Shown piece by piece: positions 2,883 through 64,000 of a DNA stretch of 64,000 bases. Every line of letters starts with the position of its first letter. Within the stretch, counting starts at the first letter, position 1. The notes beneath the pieces were generated by a model. The model saw nothing but the letters and a program-made list of their open reading frames with translations, did no database searches and was not told where the DNA came from. Both the position numbers and the translations under genes were made by a program. The stretch comes from Bryopsis sp. KO-2023. Lineage: Eukaryota > Chlorophyta > Ulvophyceae > Bryopsidales > Bryopsidaceae. Location: positions 4,464,001 through 4,528,000 of the forward strand of contig BSYQ01000009.1 in the NCBI GenBank assembly GCA_030272585.1. Direction: 5' to 3'.

Positions 2883-5800
2883 TCAAAATCGCAGTCTGGG
2901 GACGATGCACATCGCCATCAACTCATGGAACAACAGCTTGCACGCGTACGGCATGAAAACTTGCACCACGTCCGAATCGTTTCCATGGATTTGACTGTAG
3001 AAGTGGTTTTTCCTCAAATTAGCCACCGCCATCAGCCCCGATTTCTCGCACACATGCACCCTGTAAGCATCGGACTGATCGAACAACCTTTCCTTCAAGA
3101 AAGCCGCCGAACCATGGGAAATGATACAATCGCGCTCCATTTCGCCAAACCGGAGGCCACCCTCTCTGGCACGACCCTCGACCGGCTGTCTGGTTAGGAT
3201 TTGAACTGGACCTCTTGCTCTCGAATGGATTTTGTCGTCGACCATGTGCTTCAACCTTTGGTAATAAGTCGGTCCGAGAAACACCATCGTGTTGATGGGT
3301 CGACCAGTGAATCCACTGTAGACCACCTGAAAGGTAGCCACACAGAAAAAGTTGGTCCATTTGATTATTTGGTTAACTTTCTCACACATCTGCTTCTCCT
3401 CCACCTCAGGTTTCGGGGAAAAAAAAAAGGTTTGGAAAATCAAACGTTGGGGTTGTCAGACTGTCTTTCGACAATTAGACGAGGTACTGGATCGTTCCGA
3501 TCATTGTCAACACTGGACCAAAATCAAAAATCAAAAAAACAAAATCAAGAAACTACTCCTACCTCCCAGCCTCGACATTGATAACCACATTGATGCAGTT
3601 TGTTCGATATGTTTTCCACCGTGACTTCTGTGAAAGGAGTGGCATCCCCCTCTTGCCCGACGCAAGACGCCACCTTACTCATCAAACACTCGACCAAATG
3701 CCCGATCGTCATTCGAGAAGGAATGGCATGCGGATTAATGATCAGATCCGGAGAAATCCCCTCGTGCGAAAACGGCATGTCTTCCTGAGTGTAGGTTATC
3801 CCGATGGTCCCTTTCTGCCCATGTCGACTCGCAAACTTATCCCCGACTTGTGGAATCCTCACCGACCGGACACGAAGCTTGAGAAATCGCCTTCCCTCCT
3901 GATTGGTGGAGATCATGACGGCATCCACCACCCCTCGTTCGCTGTGCCGTAAGCAAGTGCTGCAGTCTCGCTTGGTGAATCGAGTGTTGTTGGTTTCGTC
4001 CATTGGCAATCGGGTGGTTTTCCCCACGATCACGTCTTCCCCCACCACGGGGGTGCCTGGCGCAACGAGGCCGTCGTCGTCCAGCTTGTCGTAGGTTCCG
4101 TGGCGCATGCCGGCGGTGATTTGGCCGTCGGGTTTTTCGATCTCTTCGTTGGTCAACGACCCGATTTTCTTTTCCTCGTCTTTGTAGGATCGGAAAAACA
4201 AAGACCTGGAAAACCGTCGACACCCAGCTGCATCGGTTTTTCTGTTATGATTTTTGCTCGCTCGGAAAAGTGAATCTTTTGCAGTGGATTTTTCACTTAA
4301 TTTTTTTCAATTTTTTTTGGGGGGGAGGGGAGGGAAAACTACAACAAGGAGGTTCTTTTGGTTTTTTCATCAATCGCTCCAAAAACGGCAATGGCATGCA
4401 CCACAAATTCTGTCGCTTTTTTTCGCGTCCACAAATTTCAACAAAAGAATCATTGGGAAGGAAAAAGTTGAAAAAAGAGGAAAAAATCGTTTTTTTTTTT
4501 CTCGTAATTTTTCTTATTGCCTATTTTCTCAAGAAATCACCCTCACCGGAAAAACCCCCGATCGATCGAAGACTGGTTCATCATGATGGAATCTTCCTGG
4601 TTGTAGCCCGAATAGCACAGAATTGCCACGATGGCATTGTGCCCCGCCGGCATTTCTCGGAAATGTAAATACTGCATGGCTTTCGTCGCAACCAGCGGCT
4701 TTTGGGGGTAATACAGCACATAACCTTGCGTATCCATTCGAGTTTGAAAATTGGTGGCGTATAGTCCCATCGCTTGCTTGCCCATGGCCGACTGATAGGT
4801 GTTTCTTGGGGACTGGTTGTGGTCGGGAAATGGAATGATGGAGGCGCACACCCCCAAAATCATGGAAGGGTGGATTTCGCAGTGAGTGTATGTGTCTGAA
4901 TAGGCACCCATCCGGTTCAACCTGGATGTACAAAAAAAAAATTAGCGCCGAAATTAAATTATTCACCAGTTCAGGTCCCACTCCTAAATCCAAAGTCATT
5001 GCACATATTTCAATTTTTTTTCGTTTTTATTTTTTGTACAGTATTAAAGATAACCATCCCAACAACTGAGGCGTTTGTTTCTATGTGACAATCATATCCA
5101 TCCAGCAATAATTAGTAATTAATTAATGATTTAATTAATTATGATTTATTTGATTTTATATATAATTCATGGGTTCATCTCCTTCGACCAAGATTCACTC
5201 AAAAGATTGGATCAGAAAAAGACGAGGCAAAAAAAAAGAGGGAATCCTAATACGACCCTAGTCACACGTCACACTTTTCCAGGTGTGACCAAACAGCGCC
5301 ACCACACCTGGCAGCCTTCAAATCTTTGATCGTCATGGAAATCATGGTGGTTTCCTCCTCCTCCGTGTCGATATACTCTATGAACCCCAAGTTCACGATG
5401 TTATTCCACCCGTATCTCTCCTCCGGCTCCAAATCCAACTGATCTTTTGCCCTCAACAGCTCAAAAATATGATCCTTCTTGATCAGCAACCTCTGATCCA
5501 TCACCACGAACAGAGGCCTGCACGTTCGCCCGGCATCGGTATACACCCTGATTTCTTGCAGGGGCAAATCGTGCACCACGCTGACTTCGGCCTCGATGTT
5601 CAACCCCCTTCGCATTTGTCTCAACGTGTCGACCAAATCTTTCGGCTCCCGGTTAATACCTATCCACACCCCATTCACAAACACTTTCGTCGCCCCCTTC
5701 AGGTGAGCTGAATTCACCTCCTCCAGATTCTCGGTACCCCACCCCTCCAAAACCTCCAACACCGAAGTCAGCGGCGATCCGACCGAAATGTATGTCATGA

Positions 5801-7605
5801 GAGCCAGATTCTTGACTAAACCGCAAGCTTGCCCCTCGGGGGTTTCTGCTGGGCAAACCATCCCCCATTGACTGTTGTGCAATTGTCTGGGTTTCGCCAG
5901 TTTTCCTTCACGACCGATGGGGGAGTTCACTCTTCTCAAGTGTGAGAGTGTGGAGGCGTATGTCAGACGTTGCAGCACTTGGGACACCCCCGATCGAACG
6001 TTTTGGGAGCCCTGTTGACCCCAATTCCCTGTGGCCAGCGAGTATTTTAAACCTGTGCTGATGATGTGGTGGTTGATGATATTGCCCAGGTTGATTTCCT
6101 GGCACCCATCCACACACCTGAACGACCCGAAATCGAAAGTCAGACCCGAAATCGAAAGTCAGACCAGAAACTCAGTTGGCTACGATCCATCCCCCGGTTG
6201 CTTTTTCCTCGAAAAAAGCTGCAAACTATTTGGTTGAAAAATGTGGGTGGATGAGTGCATTCAAGTTATGTCGATCCTTTTTTTTTTGCATGACTAGGTA
6301 CATTGGGAGGCTCCATCTGAAAGCACACCTTTGGACTTTTCGCCTGACGTCTTTCACGAGCCGCCGAAACTGCAGCCGGAAGAGATTTGCCAGCAGAGGC
6401 CCCGCCAAATCCAGCCTCTTGTTCGAGTAATGATCCCGATCGTCCTCGTTCCTTCGCCCCAATGCCACCAGCAGCAGCTTGTACACCATGTATCCAAAGA
6501 AATACCCCTTTTTGGTGGCGTCTTTTTCCAGCGAATCCACCCCTATGTGAGGCAACAGATGCTTCTCCATCAGCTCCCTGGCGTAAGCTATTCGCTTGTC
6601 CCTGGTCACCCCGACGGCTGCTCCACGTTTCCCGATAAAATCCAGAGCAACCTGCTGGTCCTTGATGGGCTCAGCCTCCTCGATGGATGGCCTCAAGGCT
6701 TCCATCAACTCGGTGTCCTCAAAATCAAACACGATGTGCTCCAGAATGTCTTTATCCGCGACGAACCCCAAGGCGCGGAACACCACCAGCACCGGGATGT
6801 CCGTGTTGACGTAAGGGAGGGTGGTTTTGATGGGTGCCCCCGAAAGAGCTGCCTTTTTCCCCGACCTGGCCAATAACTGGACCGAGAGGGTGCTGGTGCT
6901 CCTGGTGGACTTCTCCATCACCGACCGGCATTCCGACACCACGGAGTATTTCGAGGGCTGCGATTTCTTGAACACGTAGACGTGGTTGTTGGCCATCCTC
7001 TCCTGAGCGATGAGCACTTTCTCTGAGCCGTTGATTACGAAATAACCCCCTTGGTCGTAAGGGCACTCCCCCAAATCCGCCAGCTCGTGCGATTTCAGCC
7101 CGTCCAAACTGCAGAAGGAGCTCTTCAACATGATGGGCACCTCCCCGATGTAGACCTTCTCCCCAATCTCCTCCTCTTGGACGTCCCCCCCGGGCAAAGT
7201 CGTTAGCTCGACTTTCCTGACGTCCACGAAAATCGGCGAGCAATAGGTCAAATTCCTCAGCCTCGCCTCCCTGGGGAAAAGCACCGTGGTCTCCCCGTCC
7301 GCCTCATTGAAGCTCGGCTTGCTCAAGTAAATCTGCCCGAACAAAATCCTGTACTCCTTCTCTTCGTACACATCCATGTCCCCCGGATTATGTTGCGCTT
7401 CGGGCTTGATCACCACGTCGCCATTCTCGGTCACCACCTCTTGCAGGGAGTTCTCCAGGAACTCTCTGAACGAATCCAGCTGCTGTCGAACCAATCCTTT
7501 TGAGTCGAAAAACGCCGAGATAACCGTCCAGGCGTCCTCCTGCGTGATTTCGTTCTCCTCCCCCTCGAGCAGATCATCGGCTTCGCCCTCCTCAGTGAAC
7601 CCCAT
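2883..7605 (-). CDS. RPB2: RNA polymerase II second-largest subunit (RPB2)
   Basis: Second catalytic subunit of nuclear RNA polymerase II; with RPB1 it forms the active centre. Five exons join in phase: 7605-6329, 6117-5308, 4921-4547, 4205-3563 and 3326-2883, giving 1182 residues, the normal family length. Hallmarks: EEITQEDAW-type N-terminus, [19 protein letters not shown], the hybrid-binding [13 protein letters not shown] loop, [32 protein letters not shown] and [12 protein letters not shown]. Wording is closest to plant RPB2 (for example [22 protein letters not shown]). Oddity: the C-terminal zinc finger, normally two CxxC pairs, reads CEKS and later FYSQIH, so three of the four cysteines are gone. 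The gene diverges from MFAP1. Intron 1 carries a 20-bp direct duplication near 6127-6166. Identification is certain; exon ends are supported by phase and homology. Confidence 0.97.
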
Positions 7606-7987: not shown

Positions 7988-10900
7988 ATGGCGAACGCGC
8001 TGGCGGGCAAATTTCTCGACAAAGAGGTGGAAAAAGGTCGCGTGAACCCGACGAAAGTAAAACGATATTGGCCGGGACGAGCGCCCGACTGGGCTCAAGA
8101 AGAGGATGAAGAAGCGGTGCTCGCCAATCAAAGGAGGGACCAGGTCGCGGCCCCCGTGGTGGTTTCCAAAGCGGACCCCAGGCTGAAAAGATTGGCGGTG
8201 AGCGATGATGTGGCTGGGAACGAAGAGGTCGAGCACAGGAGAGTCCGAAGGAAACTGGAGGACGACTCTGGGGACCTCGTGGTGGAGGCACCCGTGAAAG
8301 ATGAGTTGGAGGAGCATGAAGAGGACGAAATTGTCGAAAACGAAGATGAAATGCTGGACAGAAGGATGGCCCTCAGACAAAGGTGTTTCTTTTTTTCCTC
8401 CCATATAATATAGACTGGCACACACATACTTTTTAGATTGATGGTTATAGAGTTAGTCGCTGCCATTTTATTTGATATTTTCTCATCCCTGATTGGATCG
8501 ATAAAGACAAAGCGCATTTTCCCGAAATTTTTGCTCCAGTTTTCATGGATGGGTGACTGTGTTTTCGTTTGATTTTTTTTTTTTGCAAAGAATTCCTGAA
8601 ATTTTCGACCCTCATGAAAAGCAAAATAGTTGGAAAGAAAGAGAAAAATATACATATATACATTCCCCCAGGCATCGTTATTTGTTGGTTGGGTGCTTAC
8701 TTTTTTGTTTTTGTTTTTTGATTTTCCCTGAAAAGATTATTGGAAACTCGTCAAAATGAAGAAGGGCTTTTGCCTGAGGAGGAGGAGGAGGAAGAAGACG
8801 ATGATGAGGTGGGCTCCACGATAAAAAAAATAAAAATAAAATAAAATAAATAAATATATATTCAAAAACAAATGCTCAGAAATAAAAATTTACCCTTGTT
8901 TTGCCAAAAACAGCATCAAATGCTCTGTTTTGCAACACTTTTGAAAGTTTTTTCTTCTTTGTTTTACAATGTTTATGAACTGATTGTTTTTTTCTGAAAT
9001 AATTTTCATAGGACATGGAGAGCGAATGGGAAACCGACTCAGATGACGAACAATTGGGGCGGCGTTTAATAAAACCCGTTTTTGTTCCAAAAGATGAAAG
9101 AGAGGTGAAAAAAACTTATTAATGTTCAATAAACAATAGAAAGAAAAAAAAAGCAAAATGAAATGAAATGAAAGAAAGCTGGTCTGAAGCTGGACCAAAT
9201 CGATATTTATTTTATGAAACAAGTTAAAACATTTATTTTTATATATTTTATTGCACAGTAAACTGCCAGGGTTACTCCACTTAGTTTCTAAATCATGATT
9301 TTTTTGGCGTGCATGTGTGTCCGTTTTTTTGTTGAAATTGATACGGTTTTTAATAGCATCGATTTCATTTTTGGACGTCTAAGTTTTTATATATATCTAT
9401 GTATATGTTTTTCTTCTTATTATTATTTTTTATTCTTTACCACCTGTAGATTATATAGAGGTTATACATTGTTTTTTTTCGTATATTTTTTTAGCATTAT
9501 GTCATTTTTTCAGTTTTTTTTATTTTTCAGACCATTGCTGAGAAGGAGAGAATGGAAGAAGAGGAGGAGCATGAATGGGAAACACGTAAAGTCCAGCTGG
9601 ATGAAAGAAAAGTGAGAATTTTTTCTATTTGGCATTCACAAAAAAAAAGAGGGCTAAATCAAAAATAAAAACTGTGACATGTGCACGAGCAAGAAATATC
9701 TTGTGGGGTGAATGAACAAAAAGTAAAAGTTTTCTTGACTTCATGCAGAACCGACTTCAAGAAAACTGGAAAAGGGGGGAAAAATCAGTAGGGTTTTTTT
9801 TTTTTTTGCTACGTTATGTGTGCACTGGAAATGCAACTTTGTTCAGGAAAAAGGGGGAAAATATATATATAAGTAGATATTTATACATTGATTTCAATGG
9901 GGGCGCCCGGGTTTGATTTTTCTGTAAATATTGCCTTACGGGATTTTTTTTCCTGCAGAAAGAAACCAAAGAAATTGTCATGGAGAAAATTCGACAAGAA
10001 GATGCTGCTCTGAGAAATAGGGTGGAATTGCCGAAGGTATATATCGTACCGTCAAATTTTTTGGTTTTTGCGGGTGTTGATTGTTTGGCTCAGTGTATCT
10101 GGGTCTGTGAAGGGTTTTCTCTTTCAACGCTTCAGTAAAATTTACAGTAAAAGATATACATATTTCCATTCCCCACAAATCCTTCTTCAATCTTTTTTCC
10201 CAGACTTCTAAAGCGTTTTCATTTATCTTATTTTATTTTTCGTATTCTGACTTTCATGTGGACGTTATCCAGGATTTTTTTCTTTATGTTGATCCATTTT
10301 TTCATGGAAGAAAAACAGTGTATACATATTTTGATTATTTTTTTTTTAAATGCACAGAGGCAAAGTGGCATTTCCCCCCACCCCTTTTCTTTTTTGTTTT
10401 CTTTTTTTTTAAATCAAAACGTTACTTTTGATTGAGCAGGCTGCAGCTGAAATCGACACTGACGATGAAAAAGACGTCGAAAAAGAGTTTGAAATCTGGA
10501 AGAAACGCGAGCTGACCAGAATCAAGCGGGAAAAGGATCAACTGGAATTTGCACTGAAATCTGCAGAGGAAAGAGAAATGATCAAAAATATGACAGAAGA
10601 GGAGCTGTGGGAAAGAAGCGCATCGAAGGTAATGGGTGCACGGGGGCCCCACATTTTAATTAAAATAAAATAAAATAGTTATTTAATTTTCATAATCTCA
10701 CTGACATACAATTTCATAATTTCTTCCTATGGAATTGATGATACGGATTGAAAGATTCTGAAATTATTTTCCCCCGTAGTGCCGAAACGATGCTGGAAAA
10801 AAAAGTAAATTCACAGTAGCATCGCCCCTTAAATCAAGTAAGGTGGGGTTATCAGAGGGTCCAAATTTTGGCTGCCGAAGGAGCGTCTGTGCTGGTTAAT

Positions 10901-27056: not shown

Positions 27057-30000
27057 ATGCTGAAGGGGTTATTCGTGGGTTTTACCCTGATTGGATGGTT
27101 CGTTCGTTTCGCCAACTCGCAGCAGCCTCTCGTTCGAGGTATGAGTTTCACGAAAACTTTTTTTTCTGCAACTGGGCGCTATGACCTCTGAGAATAATTT
27201 TTCGATATTCGCATTATCTCCTGATTATTTGTTGGTATGCAAGCAATACTATTTTTTGTTTTGTTTTGGAACTTTTATTTTAATAAATTTTTTTTTTGGT
27301 GGTTTGAATAGAGCCTGCACGGTGCAGTGGTTCTGGCGATGAGGATTGTGATGATAAGGTACAACAAATGTTTGTTTACAAATAAAACAAATCAATCAGA
27401 ATATTTCGGTGGCTGCTGGTGCATGGCAAAGTTGAAATTGCTGCTGTGCTATGCTATGTGCATGCACAAATTATATCTGTGCCCTATTTGATGGAATTAC
27501 CTTTTTTTTTGCTTTTTTTGTGCAACTCACAAGTGTTTCACTCAAAAGTCAATGTGATGATTTGGAGCGAAATCGTAAATGCACTTGCAGGTGCATGATT
27601 TTCAGTGATTATTTATTTTATTTTATTTTTTCGATTTCCTAGAATAGTATTATTGAGAAGCAGACATGCACGTCCGTGTTTCAAATATTGAAGTTGGACC
27701 CTGAGTTGCAAACCATGGCATCTGCTGTTGAGGTACTTTTTGCTGTGTTTTGTTTTTTTCAAACTGTAAAGACACACTATCATAACGCATGAAGAATCAA
27801 TCATCCGATTTCTCAATTTTTTTTATCAATTTATCGTGTTTTTTAACGGTACCACACAATCACATGAATCTGTCTCACACTTTCCAAAGAGTGAGATATG
27901 TGGGTTTTTTTGCCCATCATTTGAGTCTTTGTCAAACATTCAGCCATTTGAACCAGAACGGTAACCAGTTTCACACAACATCCCTTTCTTGTTATTTGGG
28001 TGATTGTACTGTGATGTTTGGAAAAACCTCTGCTGGCTTCTTTTCTTTCATGGAATGCCTGGAAGAAAAATTATTTTCATTGTGGCCAACGATTTTTCTG
28101 GTATTATGCATCAAATAAATGTTCATTACAAACACAATATTCATATTTTCGAGAATATGTTCTTTTGAAGGTTTCATCCTTCAAAAACACAATTTGAGTT
28201 GTCCATTTGTGGTTTCATTTTTCCCCTCAGGTTGCTGGTCTTGTCAAATATTTCTCTGGGTCTGACATGGGGACAGAGCTCGTTGCACCAACAGACTTTG
28301 CTTTCAAGGAATTTTTCCGGAGATCAGGGATTGAGGTGGAGGAATTCTTGAGCAATAGGCCTCTTGTTGTAAAGGTAATTCTAATTCATTGCTTTTGTTC
28401 ATTTTTAGCTCGAAATTATTAGCTCTGTGAGTTTTTCACCATGGCCAGTTATCCAGTTCAAAGTATAGTTGGCAAAACAGTACTGAGACTGAAGAAACGA
28501 ACTCCCTAGAACCTGCAGTTTTTCTACAAGAAAAACATGTGGAAAAGCTGTATGGGTGCCCCCCCTCCTTTCCAAAAAGAGGAATTTACTGTGAACACTC
28601 CTCCAGGTTGTTGGGATGCACATCCTTGGAGGTGCTTTCAGCACGAAGACCGACGGCTTCCATGTCAGTGAAACCGCCTCTGGATCAACAGTGAACGTGC
28701 TAAAGGAGGGCGACGAAATCACCTTCATGATTCCCAACAGGGGATCCACCACCTCCCATGTCACGATTCCAGCGTGTGGCTCGGTGATCCACAAAGCAAA
28801 CGACGTCCTCAACACTTTGCCAAGGAATCCACCCTCAGAATCACCCGCTGGGACTAAGCGGCATGAGAAGCTTCATCAGGGGGCCATCGTCAGTCGTGGG
28901 ATCACCATCACAACCGGGAGGGGGGCATCTCCTGGCGCTCCGACTGGGAGCGTGAAAAAGCGTGAGGTCCCTGCACAGCCTCCCTCGTCATCGAAACAAG
29001 CAGTTGGCGATGATGGCACCGAAATTAGTACCGAGGAGGAGGAAGAGGAGGATCCTGTTGGTTTGCCGCCGCCATCTACCCGACGTCGATCAAGAACCAG
29101 ACGGGTAGAGATCGACCGTGACAGCGATGGGTCAGCATCTGAGGAGGGGAACGAGGAAGAGGGGGAGACGGCTGCATTCACAGCTCCACCAACTCGAACT
29201 CGACCAAGGTCTAGACCTGTGCCGGTGGCGACCGACATTGACAGTGATGAGGCAGAAATTGGTGGGGACAAGGAGGAAGAAGAGGGGGACGAAGAGGAGG
29301 AAGCACGGCCAATCATCCAGATCGTGTCGACGGGGATCAAAACGTCAAAGCCAGCAACGCCACCTGTCATCACCTCAACAGTCTCCAGCTCACTTGGAGG
29401 CCTGACCTCTAGGGCTAAGGGAGACCCCATCATTGATTCTGATGACGATGATATGTCAGGAGAGCCAGAGGAGGAGCCAGAAGTTGAGCCAGCAGAGGAG
29501 GACAGCGATGTTGAAGCCATTTTGGAGGCAGATATCGATGAAGATGCAACCACTGGTCCTCTGACTCCCACATTGGCTTTCAATCCATTTTTAGATCCAA
29601 TTCCACAAGAGACTGAAGAGGTGGCGTTGGAACCAAGCACCGAACCTGATCAAAGTGATGAGACTGGCCAGTCCCCTGGGGTTCCGGCTGAAGAGCAATT
29701 CCTAGACCCATTTCGGGCTTATGATGAGTCGGAGTTATCAAAAATGCCAGGATTGTTGCCACCACAAGCAGAAGAACCTGCCACTCCTGCTCCAACAGAA
29801 GAGCTGGATTCATCTGCGAATGAGACACCTCCACAAGCGGAAGAACCTGCCACTCCTGCTCCAACAGAAGAGCTGGATTCATCTGTGGATGGGACACCTC
29901 TGTCGTCAAGTCCACCGAAGTCATCATCAAACACTGACATGCAGCCATCGACCCCATCCCAAGTTTCAGCACCACCCAGTCCACCTGTTGCCGAGCCTTC

Positions 30001-31822
30001 TCCACCACCTTCACCAGCATCTCCACCTCCACCTCCATCTACGGAGTTGACAACATCAGTGCCTTCCAGCTCTTCAAACCTGGAGGCGCCAGAACCTGAT
30101 GCCGCCCCTGTTCCTATGGCAGAGAAAGAGCCCCCACAATCTAGCCTGGAAGGAAACCCAGCAGATGGATCACGTGTGGACTTGAAGGAAGAATCAATCG
30201 CACAAGGAGAGCAGCCATCTCCAAAAGAAGATCCCCCACAGGAAGCATCAGTGGAGCAAGAAGAAGGACAAACATCTGGTGAGAAGCAAGAACAGTCTCC
30301 ACCTGTAGCACTCCCTTCTTCACCCCCTCCTGCGCCCCCTCCCGCTCCCCCTTCTCCTGACCCGCCCCCGCCCCGTTCGTCATCTTCCCCATCACCAACT
30401 GAGGCTTCATCACCCTCAGCTCCATCCCCTTCTCCTCCTGCGCCACCTTCCCCATCCCCATCCCCATCCCCTTCTCCTGCCCCGTCCCCTCCTGTGCCCC
30501 CTTCCCCGACCCCGGCTCCATCATCACCGACCTCTTCGCCTGCACCTCCACCACCCCCAGCTCCACCATCATCTCCCCCTTCATCTCCTTCAGAAGAATT
30601 ATTGCAAGAAGCAATTGGTGATTTGCGTGAACGATTGACAGGTGGAAATGCTCAACTGTCTTCCTCTCCATCGCCATCGCCACCACCGCCATCTCCACCG
30701 CCATCTCCACCGCCATCTTCAGCGCCGTCTCCACCACCGTCCCCACCATCGTCTCCACCACCGTCTCCACCACCGTCCCCTCCTCCTTCTCCTCCGCCAT
30801 CTCCTCCGCCATCTCCTCCGCCATCTCCTCCACCGTCCCCACCGCCATTTCCCCCACCGCCCCCATCTGAAGATTCTGCACAGAAAGCTCTCAAAGACCT
30901 GAAGGAAAGGTTGACTCAAGGTGGGAATGGATCGGCTGGTGACCAAGCATCGCCTGGATCATCCCCGAATGACAGTCCAGATTGGAGTGATGAGTCTGAA
31001 GGTCACCAGAATGAGTCGAATAGTGATGAGCAACAAAGGTCAGAGTCTAAGCAAAGGGATGGAGGTAATGGTGAAGAGCAGGGAGATTCCAGTTCTAGTG
31101 GTGATGGGTCTGACAACAAGGAGAATCGATCATTTGGTGGTGATCAAGGAGCTTCCAATAATGACGATGGCTCTGGCAGGAGTGATGGATCTAGTGGGGA
31201 AGATAAGGCATCAAATCAGGAAGGGTCCGAAACTGATAAAGGCTCTGATGGTGGCCAAGACAACAAGTGGAATGAAGAAAGGCAGTCTGAGGGTGATGGG
31301 TCCACCAGTGGTCAGCAGTCGGGGTCTGGTGAAAACGCTGGATCGGATGGTAAAATGGATGAGAATGCTGTTGAGCAAGAAGCTGGTTCTGGAGATGAAG
31401 GTGGCTCTGGGGATGGGGACGACTCTGGTGAGGGTAAGAATGAATCGGACGGTGGTGACTCTGGGTCTGAGGATGGCAATAGCTCTGATGATGGTGGGAA
31501 TGAGGCAGACAGTGGTGAGCAAGGGGGCTCCGAGTCCGGAGGTGGTGATGGCTCTGATGGGAGCAGGAATGAGCCAAACAGCAATGAGCAAGAGGGTTCT
31601 CAGTCTGACGATGGTGGTGGCTCTGGTGGTGGTGATAAAGACAGTCATGATGGGGAGCAAGGGGGGTCCAAGGAGGGTGATGGCACAGACGTCAAGTTGA
31701 AAAAGGAGAGTATTGAGGCGTTGAGGAATGGCTTGCTCAGCAGGGTTGATGGTGACGCCGAGGAAGGGGACAGCGTCGAGGCTTTGAGGGATGGTTTTCT
31801 CAAAAGAGTCGGCGGTGGCTAA
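27057..31822 (+). CDS. Secreted FAS1-domain protein with Ser-Pro-Pro and Gly/Ser/Asp/Glu-rich tail
   Basis: Likely extracellular-matrix or cell-wall protein. Exons 27057-27138, 27312-27358, 27643-27732, 28231-28374 and 28607-31822 join in phase, 1192 residues. The N-terminus (MLKGLFVGFTLIGWF...ANS) is a clear signal peptide. Residues about 45-195 form one fasciclin domain: TELVAPTDFAFKEFF matches the H1 motif and CGSVIHKANDVLNTLP the H2 motif. The tail then runs: acidic Glu/Asp segments, a repeated EEPATPAPTEELDSS, long SPPP/SPSPSP runs like pherophorins and other hydroxyproline-rich algal proteins, and a Gly/Ser/Asp/Glu/Asn-rich tract. Four short related helices punctuate it (AIGDLRERLTGG, ALKDLKERLTQGG, SIEALRNGLLSRV, SVEALRDGFLKRV). 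No membrane anchor or GPI-type C-terminus is seen. Fasciclin assignment is firm; the role is inferred. Confidence 0.88.
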
Positions 31823-41539: not shown

Positions 41540-42095
41540 ATTGCGTAGCATGAATTGCACAGCACGGAGATACCCCACGTCAGCGACGGCAGCCGTCGAC
41601 CGGATAAGAAAAAAAAAACCTTTATAATCGCAGTATCCACGCAAAAAACTTCTCGTCGAGACTCCGGCCGTAGCATCGTGCGATTTGCTGTTGTGGTATA
41701 TTTCACGGAAAAGGGGGGAATCAATTCTCTCGGCTCACGAACGGATCATACCTAAAATCCTTTGAACAAATCCAAACGCTTGTTATTGCGGCTTTTTGCG
41801 CAATCCCAGGAACAATTCATTGCTCGGAAAGTCTCCGGCGGCCGAAAAATAAATTCAAGTTTTTGGTTGCACCACCACGTTGTCTTTCCAAGTATCCAAT
41901 TGGTTCTTCACCAACAAAGTTATGAGTCTTGAGTCGTTGGTTGGTTGTTGGTTTTGCACTGTTTATTGGTATAAGTTCGTTTTTGCTGCTTGTCAAGTGT
42001 TTGGTGGTGAGGGTGATAAACGTGGGCACTCGTGAAGTTTTTTCTGCGTTTGATTAGGGTGTTTGGTTGGCTGTGCGTGAGGTGTTTTTATGATG

Positions 42096-42830
42096 GAGGT
42101 GGGCTGTTGTGGTGATTATTTTGGTGGTCGATTGGGGTGTTTGGTTGGCTGTGGGTGAGATGTTTTTATGATGGAGGTGGGCTGTTGTGGTGATTTCTTG
42201 GTGGTCGATTGGGGTGTTTGGTTGGCTGTGGGTGAGGTGTTTTTATGATGGAGGTGGGCTGTTGTGGTGATTATTTTGGTGGTCGATTGGGGTGTTTGGT
42301 TGGCTGTGGGTGAGGTGTTTTTATGATGGAGGTGGGCTGTTGTGGTGATTATTTTGGTGGTCGATTGGGGTGTTTGGTTGGCTGTGGGTGAGGTGTTTTT
42401 ATGATGGAGGTGGGCTGTTGTGGTGATTATTTTGGTGGTCGATTGGGGTGTTTGGTTGGCTGTGGGAGAGGTGTTTTTATGATGGAGGTGGGCTGTTGTG
42501 ATTATTTTGGTGGTCGATTGGGGTGTTTGGTTGGCTGTGGGAGAGGTGTTTTTTATGATGGAGGTGGGCTGTTGTGGTGATTATTTTGGTGGTCGATTGG
42601 GGTGTTTGGTTGGCTGTGGGAGAGGTGTTTTTTTGATGGAGGTGGGGTGTTGTGGTGATTATTTTGGTGGTCGATTGGGGTGTTTGGTTGGCTGTGGCAG
42701 AGGTGTTTTTATGATGGAGGTGGGCTGTTGTGGTGATTATTTTGGTGGTCGATTGGGGTGTTTGGTTGGCTGTGGGAGAGGTGTTTTTTATGATGGAGGT
42801 GGGCTGTTGTGGTGATTATTTTGGTGTGGG
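42096..42830 (+). repeat. 78-bp minisatellite inside copy B
   Basis: About nine tandem units of a GGAGGTGGGCTGTTGTGGTG-containing 78-bp motif, with small length changes in some units (for example one lacks GTG before ATTATTTTGG). Confidence 0.9.
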
Positions 42831-42962: not shown

Positions 42963-43096
42963 AACCGGTGGTGGCTTTGTTGTGTTCTGTGTGTGAATAT
43001 CGTCCAAGCATATGTTCGTTGGTTTATTCAACCGGTGGTGGCTTTGTTGTGTTCTGTGTGTGAATATCGTCCAAGCATATGTTCGTTGATTTATTC
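42963..43096. repeat. 67-bp direct duplication in copy B
   Basis: Two adjacent units starting AACCGGTGGTGGCTTTGTTG at 42963 and 43030. Copy A has a single unit, so the duplication arose after the copies separated. Confidence 0.85.
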
Positions 43097-43384
43097 AAGT
43101 AAGGTTTGGTTTCCGTCTTCTTCATCTTGCCCGGATAGTTCTGGTTTTTGCTTGCAAGCAAGGCTGAGTTTTTTCCTTCGTTCTTTTATCGCTTTTGTTT
43201 CAAGTAAAGATGGGTTGTTATCCTTTCCCCAAAAAAATTGCAGATCTTTTTGATAATGTCCCTTTCAAGCATCTCTCATATTTTATCTACGAGTTCAGTT
43301 TCCGGCGATGTTTTCTCCTTCATTAATCAACGTTTTTTTTGTATAACCAGTTGTTTGTAATGAAATTTGTTAGTGTAACCAAGG

Positions 43385-57361: not shown

Positions 57362-58220
57362 TCTAATTTTAATCACTTGAACGCTGCAAGTATGTAGCAT
57401 AAGTTCCACAGCACAGAGATTACCCCACGTCAGCGACGGCAGCCGTCGACTGGATAAGAAAAACCACCATTTGTGATGGCGGTATCACAAACAACAAACT
57501 TCTCGTCCAGACTCCAGCCGTAGCATCGTGCGATTTGCTGTTCAGGTATATTCCACGGACAAGGGGGGAATCAAATCTCTCGGCTCACGAACGGATCATA
57601 CCTGAAATCCTTTGAAGAAATCCAAACGCTTGTTATTGCGGCTTTTTGCGCAATCCCAGGAACAATTCATTTCTCGAACCGTCTCCGGCGGCCGAAAAAA
57701 ACAATTCAAGTTTTTGGTTGCACCACAACGTTGTCTTTCCAAGTATCCAATTGGTTCTTCACCAACAAAGTTATGAGTCTTGCGTCGTTGGTTGGCTGTT
57801 GCTTTTGCGCTGTTTATTGGTATAAGTTCCTTTTCACTGCTTGTCAAGTGTTTGGTGGTGAGGGTGATAAACGTGGGCACTCGTGAAGTTTTTTTTGGCG
57901 AGAGGTATCTGGTGTGAGGTATCTGGTGATGGGGGTCGGTTGTTGCGGTGTCTCGTTAGGAACGAATTGGTTATTGGCTCGCTGGCTCTGCGATGTATTT
58001 TGAAGGTGGGCTGTTGACGTGATTTTGTATATGGTCGATTTGGGTTTTGGATGACTGGGGGAGAGATGTTTGGTGATGGAGGTGGAATGTTGAGGTGATT
58101 TTGTATGTGGTCGATTAGGTGTTTGGATGGCTGGGGGAGAGGTGTTTGGTGATGGAGGTGGGATGTTGAGGTGATTTTGTGTGTGGTCGATTTGGGTTTT
58201 GGGATGCGGTTATTCGGCAT
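57362..58220 (+). mobile_element. Dispersed repeat family, copy C (truncated)
   Basis: Shares TCTAATTTTAATCACTT upstream with copy A, then the GTAGCATAAGTTCCACAGCA start, the CGACGGC-A-GCCGTCG palindrome near 57431-57446, the conserved segment antisense to ORF 57596-57880, and only about two to three diverged minisatellite units. It lacks the tail of A and B. Copies C and D share a segment before the minisatellite (antisense reading RRASEPITNSFLTRHRNNRP) that A and B lack, so there are two subfamilies. Confidence 0.7.
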
Positions 58221-62199: not shown

Positions 62200-64000
62200 A
62201 ACCCAGTTAAATGCTACAAATATGTAGCATCAGTTCCACAGCACAGAGATAACCCCACGTCAGCGACGGCAGCCGTCGACCGGATAAGAAAAATCACCAT
62301 TTGTGATCGCAGTATCCACGCAACATACTTCTCATCAAGACTCCGGCCGTAGCATCGTGCGATTTGCTGTTCAGGTATATTTCACGCAAAGGGGGAATCG
62401 ATTCTCTCGGCTCACGAACGGATCATACCTGAAATCCGTTGAACAAATCCAAACGCTTGTTTTTGCGGCTTGTTGCGCAATCCCAGGAACAATTCATTGC
62501 TCGAACCGTCTCCGGCGGCCGAAAAATAAATTCAAGTTTTTGGTTGCACCACAACGTTGTCTTTCCAAGTATCCAATTGGTTCTTCACCAACAAAGTTAT
62601 GAGTCTTGCGTCGTTGGTTAGCTGTTGCTTTTGCCCTGTTTATTGGTATAAGTTCGTTTTCACTGCTTGTCAAGTGTTTGGTGGTGACGGTGATAAACGT
62701 GGGCACGCATAAAGTTTGTTTTGGCAAGAGGTTTTTGGTGTGACGTATATGGTGCTGATGGTCGGTTGTTGCGGTGTCTCGTTAGGAACGAATTGGTTAT
62801 TGGCTCGCTGGCTCTGCGGTGTATTTTTATGAAGGTGGGCTGTTGAGTTGATTTTTTGTGTGGTCGATTTGGTGTTTGGATGACTGGGGGAGAGGTGTTT
62901 TGTGTTGGAGGTGGGCTGTTTTGGTGATTTTTTGTGTGGTCGATTTGGTGTTTGGATGACTGGGGGAGAGGTGTTTGGTGTTGGAGGTGGGCTGTTGAGG
63001 TGATTTTCTGTGTGGTCGATTTGGGTGTTTGGATGGCTTGGGGAGAGGTGTTTGGTGTTGGAGGTGGGCTGTTTTGGTGATTTTCTGTGTGGTCGATTTG
63101 GGTGTTTGGATGGCTTGGGGAGAGGTGTTTTGTGTTGGAGGTGGGCTGTTGAGGTGATTTTCTGTGTGGTCGATTTGGTGTTTGGATGACTGGGGGAGAG
63201 GTGTTTTGTGTTGGAGGTGGGCTGTTTTGGTGATTTTCTGTGTGGTCGATTTGGGTGTTTGGATGGCTTGGGGAGAGGTGTTTGGTGTTGGAGGTGGGCT
63301 GTTGAGGTGATTTTCTGTGTGGTCGATTTGGTGTTTGGATGACTGGGGGAGAGGTGTTTTGTGTTGGAGGTGGGCTGTTTTGGTGATTTTTTGTGTGGTC
63401 GATTTGGTGTTTGGATGACTGGGGGAGAGGTGTTTGGTGATGGAGGTGGGCTGTTTTGGTGATTTTCTGTGTGGTCGATTTGGGTGTTTGGATGGCTTGG
63501 GGAGAGGTGTTTGGTGATGGAGGTGGGCTGTTTTGGTGATTTTTTGTGTGGTCGATTTGGTGTTTGGATGACTGGGGGAGAGGTGTTTGGTGATGGAGGT
63601 GGGCTGTTTTGGTGATTTTTTGTGTGGTCAATTTGGTGTTTGGATGACTGGGGGAGAGGTGTTTGGTGTTGGAGGTGGGCTGTTTTGGTGATTTTTTGTG
63701 TGGTCGATTTGGTGTTTGGATGACTGGGGGAGAGGTGTTTGGTGTTGGAGGTGGGCTGTTGAGGTGATTTTCTGTGTGGTCGATTTGGTGTTTGGATGAC
63801 TGGGGGAGAGGTGTTTGGTGATGGAGGTGGGCTGTTTTGGTGATTTTTTGTGTGGTCGATTTGGTGTTTGGATGACTGGGGGAGAGGTGTTTGGTGATGG
63901 AGGTGGGCTGTTTTGGTGATTTTCTGTGTGGTCGATTTGGGTGTTTGGATGGCTTGGGGAGAGGTGTTTGGTGATGGAGGTGGGCTGTTTTGGTGATTTT
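62200..64000 (+). mobile_element. Dispersed repeat family, copy D (runs off the window)
   Basis: Starts with the full ATGCTACAAATATGTAGCAT palindrome (about 62210-62229) and the CGACGGC-A-GCCGTCG palindrome near 62270-62285, then the conserved segment antisense to ORF 62494-62727. The minisatellite continues to the window edge, so the tail is not visible. Confidence 0.75.
62830..64000 (+). repeat. 76-77-bp minisatellite inside copy D
   Basis: At least fifteen units of a GGAGGTGGGCTGTTTTGGTG-containing motif. Two unit types alternate irregularly: one with GATGACTGGGG (76 bp) and one with GATGGCTTGGGG (77 bp). The complementary strand is open for over 320 codons. Confidence 0.9.

Follow-up and report, generated by a model that had tools for sequence, protein, structure and literature searches.

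RNA polymerase II (Pol II) normally carries eight zincs, two of them at the RPB1 sites named Zn7 and Zn8, and the residues that serve as ligands at these sites are assigned. Bacterial and plastid RpoB proteins are known to be without the clamp zinc domain, and in yeast the largest subunit reportedly needs the Rpa135 zinc domain for its recruitment. According to PMC5335688, three zincs stabilise the clamp, and mutating the first of the RPB1 clamp zinc sites is lethal, for which it cites Donaldson and Friesen 2000. PMC13374769 describes the zinc loop of RPB3 as missing from its Pol I/III paralogue, AC40/RPAC1. A literature search covering titles and abstract openings, with subscription journals mostly outside it, found no report of zinc-site loss in eukaryotic Pol II. 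Here we describe an RPB2 gene from the green alga Bryopsis sp. KO-2023, a member of the Bryopsidales (Ulvophyceae), that keeps the seven Pfam domains of eukaryotic RPB2 (e.g. PDB 9mu7) and differs from it in the clamp zinc site, which reads C-C-C-C there and C-S-S-H in the alga.

The gene lies in a 64,000-nucleotide stretch of the assembly GCA_030272585.1 (contig BSYQ01000009.1, positions 4,464,001 to 4,528,000), referred to as the window, to which positions refer unless another contig or locus is named; this assembly and the read sets of the strain are named in PMC12509668. RPB2 occupies 7605-2883 on the minus strand as five exons; spliced together, these form a single open frame, closed by one stop, that encodes about 1182-1191 residues. 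Exon 1 (6302..7605; domains 1-2) was placed by PF04563 and PF04561 matches and the joined model, its 3’ end falling at 6302 or 6329, either of which is in frame with a single terminal stop. Exon 2 (5308..6117; domains 3-5, matching PF04565, PF04566 and PF04567), exon 3 (4547..4921; PF00562 match, 4.9e-41) and exon 4 (3563..4205; domain 6, PF00562 match, 1e-61) were delimited by splice sites and the in-frame joined model. The last exon (2883..3326) follows the acceptor ag/GTGGTC at 3326, matches PF00562 and PF04560, and encodes the end of domain 6, domain 7 with the clamp, and the stop codon at 2885-2883. All of domains 1-7 are thus present and in order (PF04563, PF04561, PF04565, PF04566, PF04567, PF00562, PF04560), the exon 4 translation contains the GDK..SRHGQKG motif characteristic of the RPB2 active site, and no signs of a pseudogene (stops, frame shifts or missing domains) were found in the joined five-exon model. 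In phmmer comparisons of the last exon, the nearest class was RPB2 (best score 219.7 bits), ahead of RPC2 (153.7), plant Pol IV/V subunit 2 (125.5) and RPA2 (100).

The divergent neighbour of RPB2 (7988-8380, plus strand) is without a Pfam match for that piece and presumably encodes a protein resembling the spliceosome protein MFAP1. Elsewhere in the window, a plus-strand open frame of 1068 residues (28616-31822), acidic and Pro/Ser-rich, likewise has no Pfam match. A minisatellite with a 76-78-base unit forms four arrays on both strands (811-1405, 42052-42826, 58004-58202 and 62833-64000), with visually similar flanks near 520-600 and 42963-43098, and appears to belong to a dispersed repeat.

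The ligand positions of the RPB2 clamp zinc site (2985..3050, minus strand) were read from the codons and from alignment to PDB chains and 90 related loci. Position 1 is kept as Cys (TGC, 3050-3048), positions 2 and 3 are Ser (TCG, 3041-3039, and AGT, 2996-2994) and position 4 is His (CAT, 2987-2985), a sequence that departs from the four-ligand pattern CxxC ... CxxC/H; in the RPB2 chains 9mu7_B, 9eh1_B and 9fyx_B, Cys faces all four positions. Against 9mu7_B, the best-scoring solved RPB2, 103/146 residues of the last exon are identical, a count that includes one mismatch from an intron codon at the front of the query, which started at 3329. Identity stands at 75/93 before the site, where that intron codon is the first of the 93, 18/31 after it and 9/18 among the non-ligand residues inside it.

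Prokaryote genome contigs were scanned with the last exon, which confirmed at least 579 relatives, of which the best 80 were used (79 archaeal by title), and a scan of viral contigs gave a further 10 loci. These loci are the ones most similar to the query and are partly near-duplicates, and the survey is therefore an uneven sample. Among the 90 loci (the best 80 of at least 579 from prokaryote records, and the 10 viral), 82 read C-C-C-C and 6 read C-C-C-H, while one falls short of the site and one, viral, reads D-T-S-S. A profile search of viral contigs returned 20 loci, including the same ten contigs, with 18 C-C-C-C, one short and one D-T-S-S. With these 20 in place of the 10, four ligands are kept in 98 of 100 loci (again with the best 80 of at least 579 from prokaryote records), the exceptions being one that ends before the site and one giant virus in which all four are lost. 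The RPB2 of this virus (IMGVR_UViG_3300010885_043880; open frame at L065 2-4270, also L167) resembles that of the alga in retaining the ribbon with ligands lost, here D,T,S,S, and differs in that none of the four remains and that its open frame carries, by reading, three intein-like inserts. In archaeal Rpo2, as in the alga, His may be the fourth ligand (e.g. CPVHGDKS in 36rp_B), but the archaeal loci keep three Cys, at two of which the alga has Ser. The end of plastid rpoB in the alga has no such Cys pairs; there, however, the ribbon itself is absent, whereas algal RPB2 keeps the ribbon and changes its ligands.

Two further observations were made in these scans. The one locus among the best 80 that is not archaeal by title (L066 3271-3711) encodes a eukaryote-like RPB2 with 66% identity and four Cys; its contig is catalogued with an Acholeplasmatales MAG of sheep rumen origin, a probable contamination, and an RPB1 query of the viral contigs gave two loci that were read as chance matches.

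The original prediction, made from the window alone, had read the two ligand pairs as C-E-K-S and S-Q-I-H in an intact frame, and the minus-strand codons and the frame open to the stop at 2885-2883 bear this out. Its count of three ligands gone out of four holds for the two Ser; the fourth position is not clearly lost, because the His found there is zinc-capable and occupies the same position in 6/90 loci and in archaeal 36rp_B. On these readings, the loss of two ligands is certain, and a third position now holds a different zinc-capable residue. The several base substitutions per codon that it described apply to TCG and CAT, each two steps from a Cys codon, but AGT is a single step from TGT. 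The flanks, which it called fully conserved, are strongly but incompletely so, as the identities to 9mu7_B before and after the site indicate.

As read from translations of the assembly, the loss is wider than had been described and runs through RPB1, RPB3 and RPB9 and into RPC2, with 5/6 Pol II-specific zinc sites damaged (RPB1 Zn7, RPB1 Zn8, RPB2, RPB3 and the RPB9 N-ribbon). RPB1 (contig C1, about 7533200-7542000) has a heptad tail. Its Zn7 site reads KCLTDGAGVQDCPGYFGH, giving C,D,C,Y where four aligned PDB chains have CxTC ... CPGHFGH, and so retains two Cys, with a His three residues past the lost ligand. At Zn8, RCVSYHSSRLL replaces C..C and GSKKVDEFIGAPQPSYK replaces the long loop that carries the last two Cys, leaving a shortened loop and no usual ligand; the fourth Cys is presumably placed correctly, at a point where the printed alignments break. 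A missed exon in this loop was considered and rejected, since the exon, flanked at either end by gt/ag, is placed between LLIDK and ELSAERAYEIL. The RPB3 loop reads SPYDAGDEQVDEVEF, against SRDCDACDGDGQCEFCSVEF in plant subunit 3, with no Cys left; the loop is likewise missing from AC40/RPAC1, but in the alga it is RPB3 itself that has lost the Cys. In RPB9, the N-ribbon has FCPESN ... FCKNCG, with Ser at the second ligand (C,S,C,C) where FCRECN is found elsewhere, and the C-ribbon is intact (CPLC ... CTAC). RPB3 was located by a weak profile match below the cut-off (E 0.155) in a search that also missed AC40, so a second RPB3 is less firmly excluded than a second RPB2; the same lesser firmness applies to RPB9. 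Judging by the residues left, metal may still be held at RPB1 Zn7 (two usual ligands), at the RPB9 N-ribbon (three Cys) and at RPB2 (Cys and His).

Among sites that are not specific to Pol II (those of shared subunits and of Pol I and Pol III), 1/11 examined is damaged, that of RPC2 alone. Its clamp region (L003/L038; contig C14, 1659988-1660260) reads VHVDTRSG...GCAVSP against VDVCGQCG...CHYC in human RPC2, with most ligands lost, one Cys remaining near the fourth position and six residues inserted. The erosion is thus not purely a matter of Pol II, as RPC2 of Pol III is also hit. Translations show intact zinc sites in RPB10 and RPB12, at Zn7 and Zn8 of both RPC1 and RPA1, and in both ribbons of the gene we take to be C11; the RPA2 site (CANC...CLTC) and the C-ribbon of the gene we take to be A12 are also intact, and no A12 N-ribbon turned up in the sequence flanking the C-ribbon locus. 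By these readings the Pol I zinc sites examined are all kept, while Pol II has lost most of its own wholly or partly. A hypergeometric estimate of this split is 0.008 for 16 sites (the second C11 ribbon being left out), with the proviso that sites in the same protein are not independent. A general loss of zinc ribbons from the transcription machinery was rejected, as the ribbons of TFIIS, Spt4 and a Brf1-like protein are intact. In a TFIIB-like ribbon the first Cys pair is intact (its second half lies on another exon), and the only match to a TFIIE-alpha profile was weak, falling short of the cut-off (E 0.026).

These sites bear on whether RPB2 has exchanged ligands, forming a rearranged metal site in which Cys 3050 and His 2987 are joined by one or two nearby His or acidic residues. 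A residual C/H site could exist in RPB2, since the fourth ligand is naturally His in some relatives (6/90 loci and archaeal Rpo2) and two more His lie close by, in VHVC (3056-3054) and KNHF (3005-3003). Against this, Ser stands at both middle ligand positions, and such an exchange would leave the RPB1 Zn8 and RPB3 loops unexplained, being inapplicable where no usual ligand remains, and would hardly account for RPC2. We regard a rearranged site as unlikely, though worth keeping in view.

The whole assembly (91,088,769 bases, 28 contigs) was searched with the PF04560 (domain 7) profile and with the last exon itself, and neither query found a second RPB2, the exon search extending to E values of 10. 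RPB2-type matches elsewhere were RPC2 (C14, identified by its best match, human RPC2), a C4 gene which we take to be RPA2 from its ending and by elimination, and plastid rpoB (C28), to which the profile search adds a weak plastid-like fragment on C16. The profile for domain 1 of the largest subunit matched RPB1 (C1), RPC1 (C8), plastid rpoC1 (C28) and, below the cut-off, a weak C7 locus that is presumably RPA1; no second RPB1 was found in this search of the assembly. Numerous YSPTSPS repeats at the end of the C1 gene identify it as the Pol II subunit. A second set of the plant Pol IV/V type was rejected, as there are no extra RPB1 or RPB2 paralogues and the sole RPB1 found has the heptad tail.

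Two side observations concern plastid sequences. The plastid contig C28 (91,672 bases, 90,000 examined) carries, by translation reading, green-type rbcL, chlL/N/B, tufA and tilS. The C16 fragment (585248-585334) resembles the end of plastid rpoB on a large contig and is probably plastid DNA inserted into the nucleus.

The original prediction had left two explanations standing, a lineage that dropped a site held across eukaryotes or a diverged paralogue, and had proposed a genome search for a second RPB2 with intact cysteines. That search found none, and of the two explanations the first gains support. That the window gene is a diverged paralogue or a relic, the normal RPB2 being located elsewhere or absent from the assembly, would fit an assembly that is possibly incomplete, searched exon by exon with only the best candidates scored. 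We nevertheless consider it highly improbable: the 91 Mb yielded no other RPB2 although RPA2, RPC2 and rpoB were detected, which makes a relic unlikely; the RPB2 frame is intact; and the only heptad-bearing RPB1 found has itself lost the matching partner zinc sites. The earlier statement that a single sequencing error cannot explain the change also stands. A sequencing or assembly error would have to have altered five or more bases, spread over three codons of a single exon, without shifting the frame, and also to have produced the independent losses on contigs C1, C5, C7 and C14, some of which include loop deletions; its probability is close to nil.

Whether the ribbon could adopt its usual fold was addressed with AlphaFold2, using 38 rows that are nearly all four-ligand homologues. 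The algal RPB2 ribbon was predicted with block mean pLDDT of 86-91 over residues 81-130 and a pTM of 0.52, with strands at 88-94, 102-104, 109-112 and 121-127. With the four-Cys relative L066 as the lead and the same rows, pLDDT was 71-88 in the same blocks and pTM 0.49, and the N-terminal half was poor in both models, below 50 in parts. With such rows and a pTM of only 0.52, the prediction depends on the four-ligand homologues, and the result speaks for compatibility of the algal ribbon with the fold rather than proof of it.

We think it probable that the sole RPB2 found, intact as it is, is expressed and functional, and that decay of its clamp site is one element of a mainly Pol II erosion of zinc sites. 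The damaged ribbons would then adopt their fold either zinc-free or with some weak binding left, with the clamp and the assembly platform held by protein packing, and Pol II might be left with as few as three structural zincs rather than eight, in the RPB9 C-ribbon, RPB10 and RPB12. The reported lethality of RPB1 clamp zinc mutations counts against a functional zinc-poor Pol II. On the present state of the enzyme this account agrees with one of relaxed constraint alone, in which the zincs became dispensable through a compensating change and the ligands drifted, zinc loss itself bringing no benefit; the two differ solely on cause. The sites have indeed decayed to different degrees, ranging from a single missing ligand (RPB9 N-ribbon) to none left with a shortened loop (RPB1 Zn8 and RPB3), as drift would have it, but the split of 5/6 Pol II-specific against 1/11 other sites eroded calls for a Pol II-wide cause, and we put relaxed constraint alone at somewhat short of an even chance. 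A bolder proposal is that the siphonous green algal lineage has a nearly zinc-free Pol II core, the clamp, RPB3 and RPB9 N-ribbon zincs having been relinquished through coordinated adaptation; this is speculative and rather doubtful, as is, to the same degree, the suggestion that such a loss was driven by zinc sparing or by resistance to oxidation or chelation.

Few eukaryotic machines are as conserved as Pol II, and damage to five of its six Pol II-specific zinc sites amounts to a natural experiment. The alga makes testable the roles of the clamp zincs, the substitutions that compensate for them, and zinc as structure as opposed to regulation or nutrient reserve. If the core did become zinc-free by adaptation, clamp and assembly zincs that are supposed to be indispensable would prove replaceable by protein packing.
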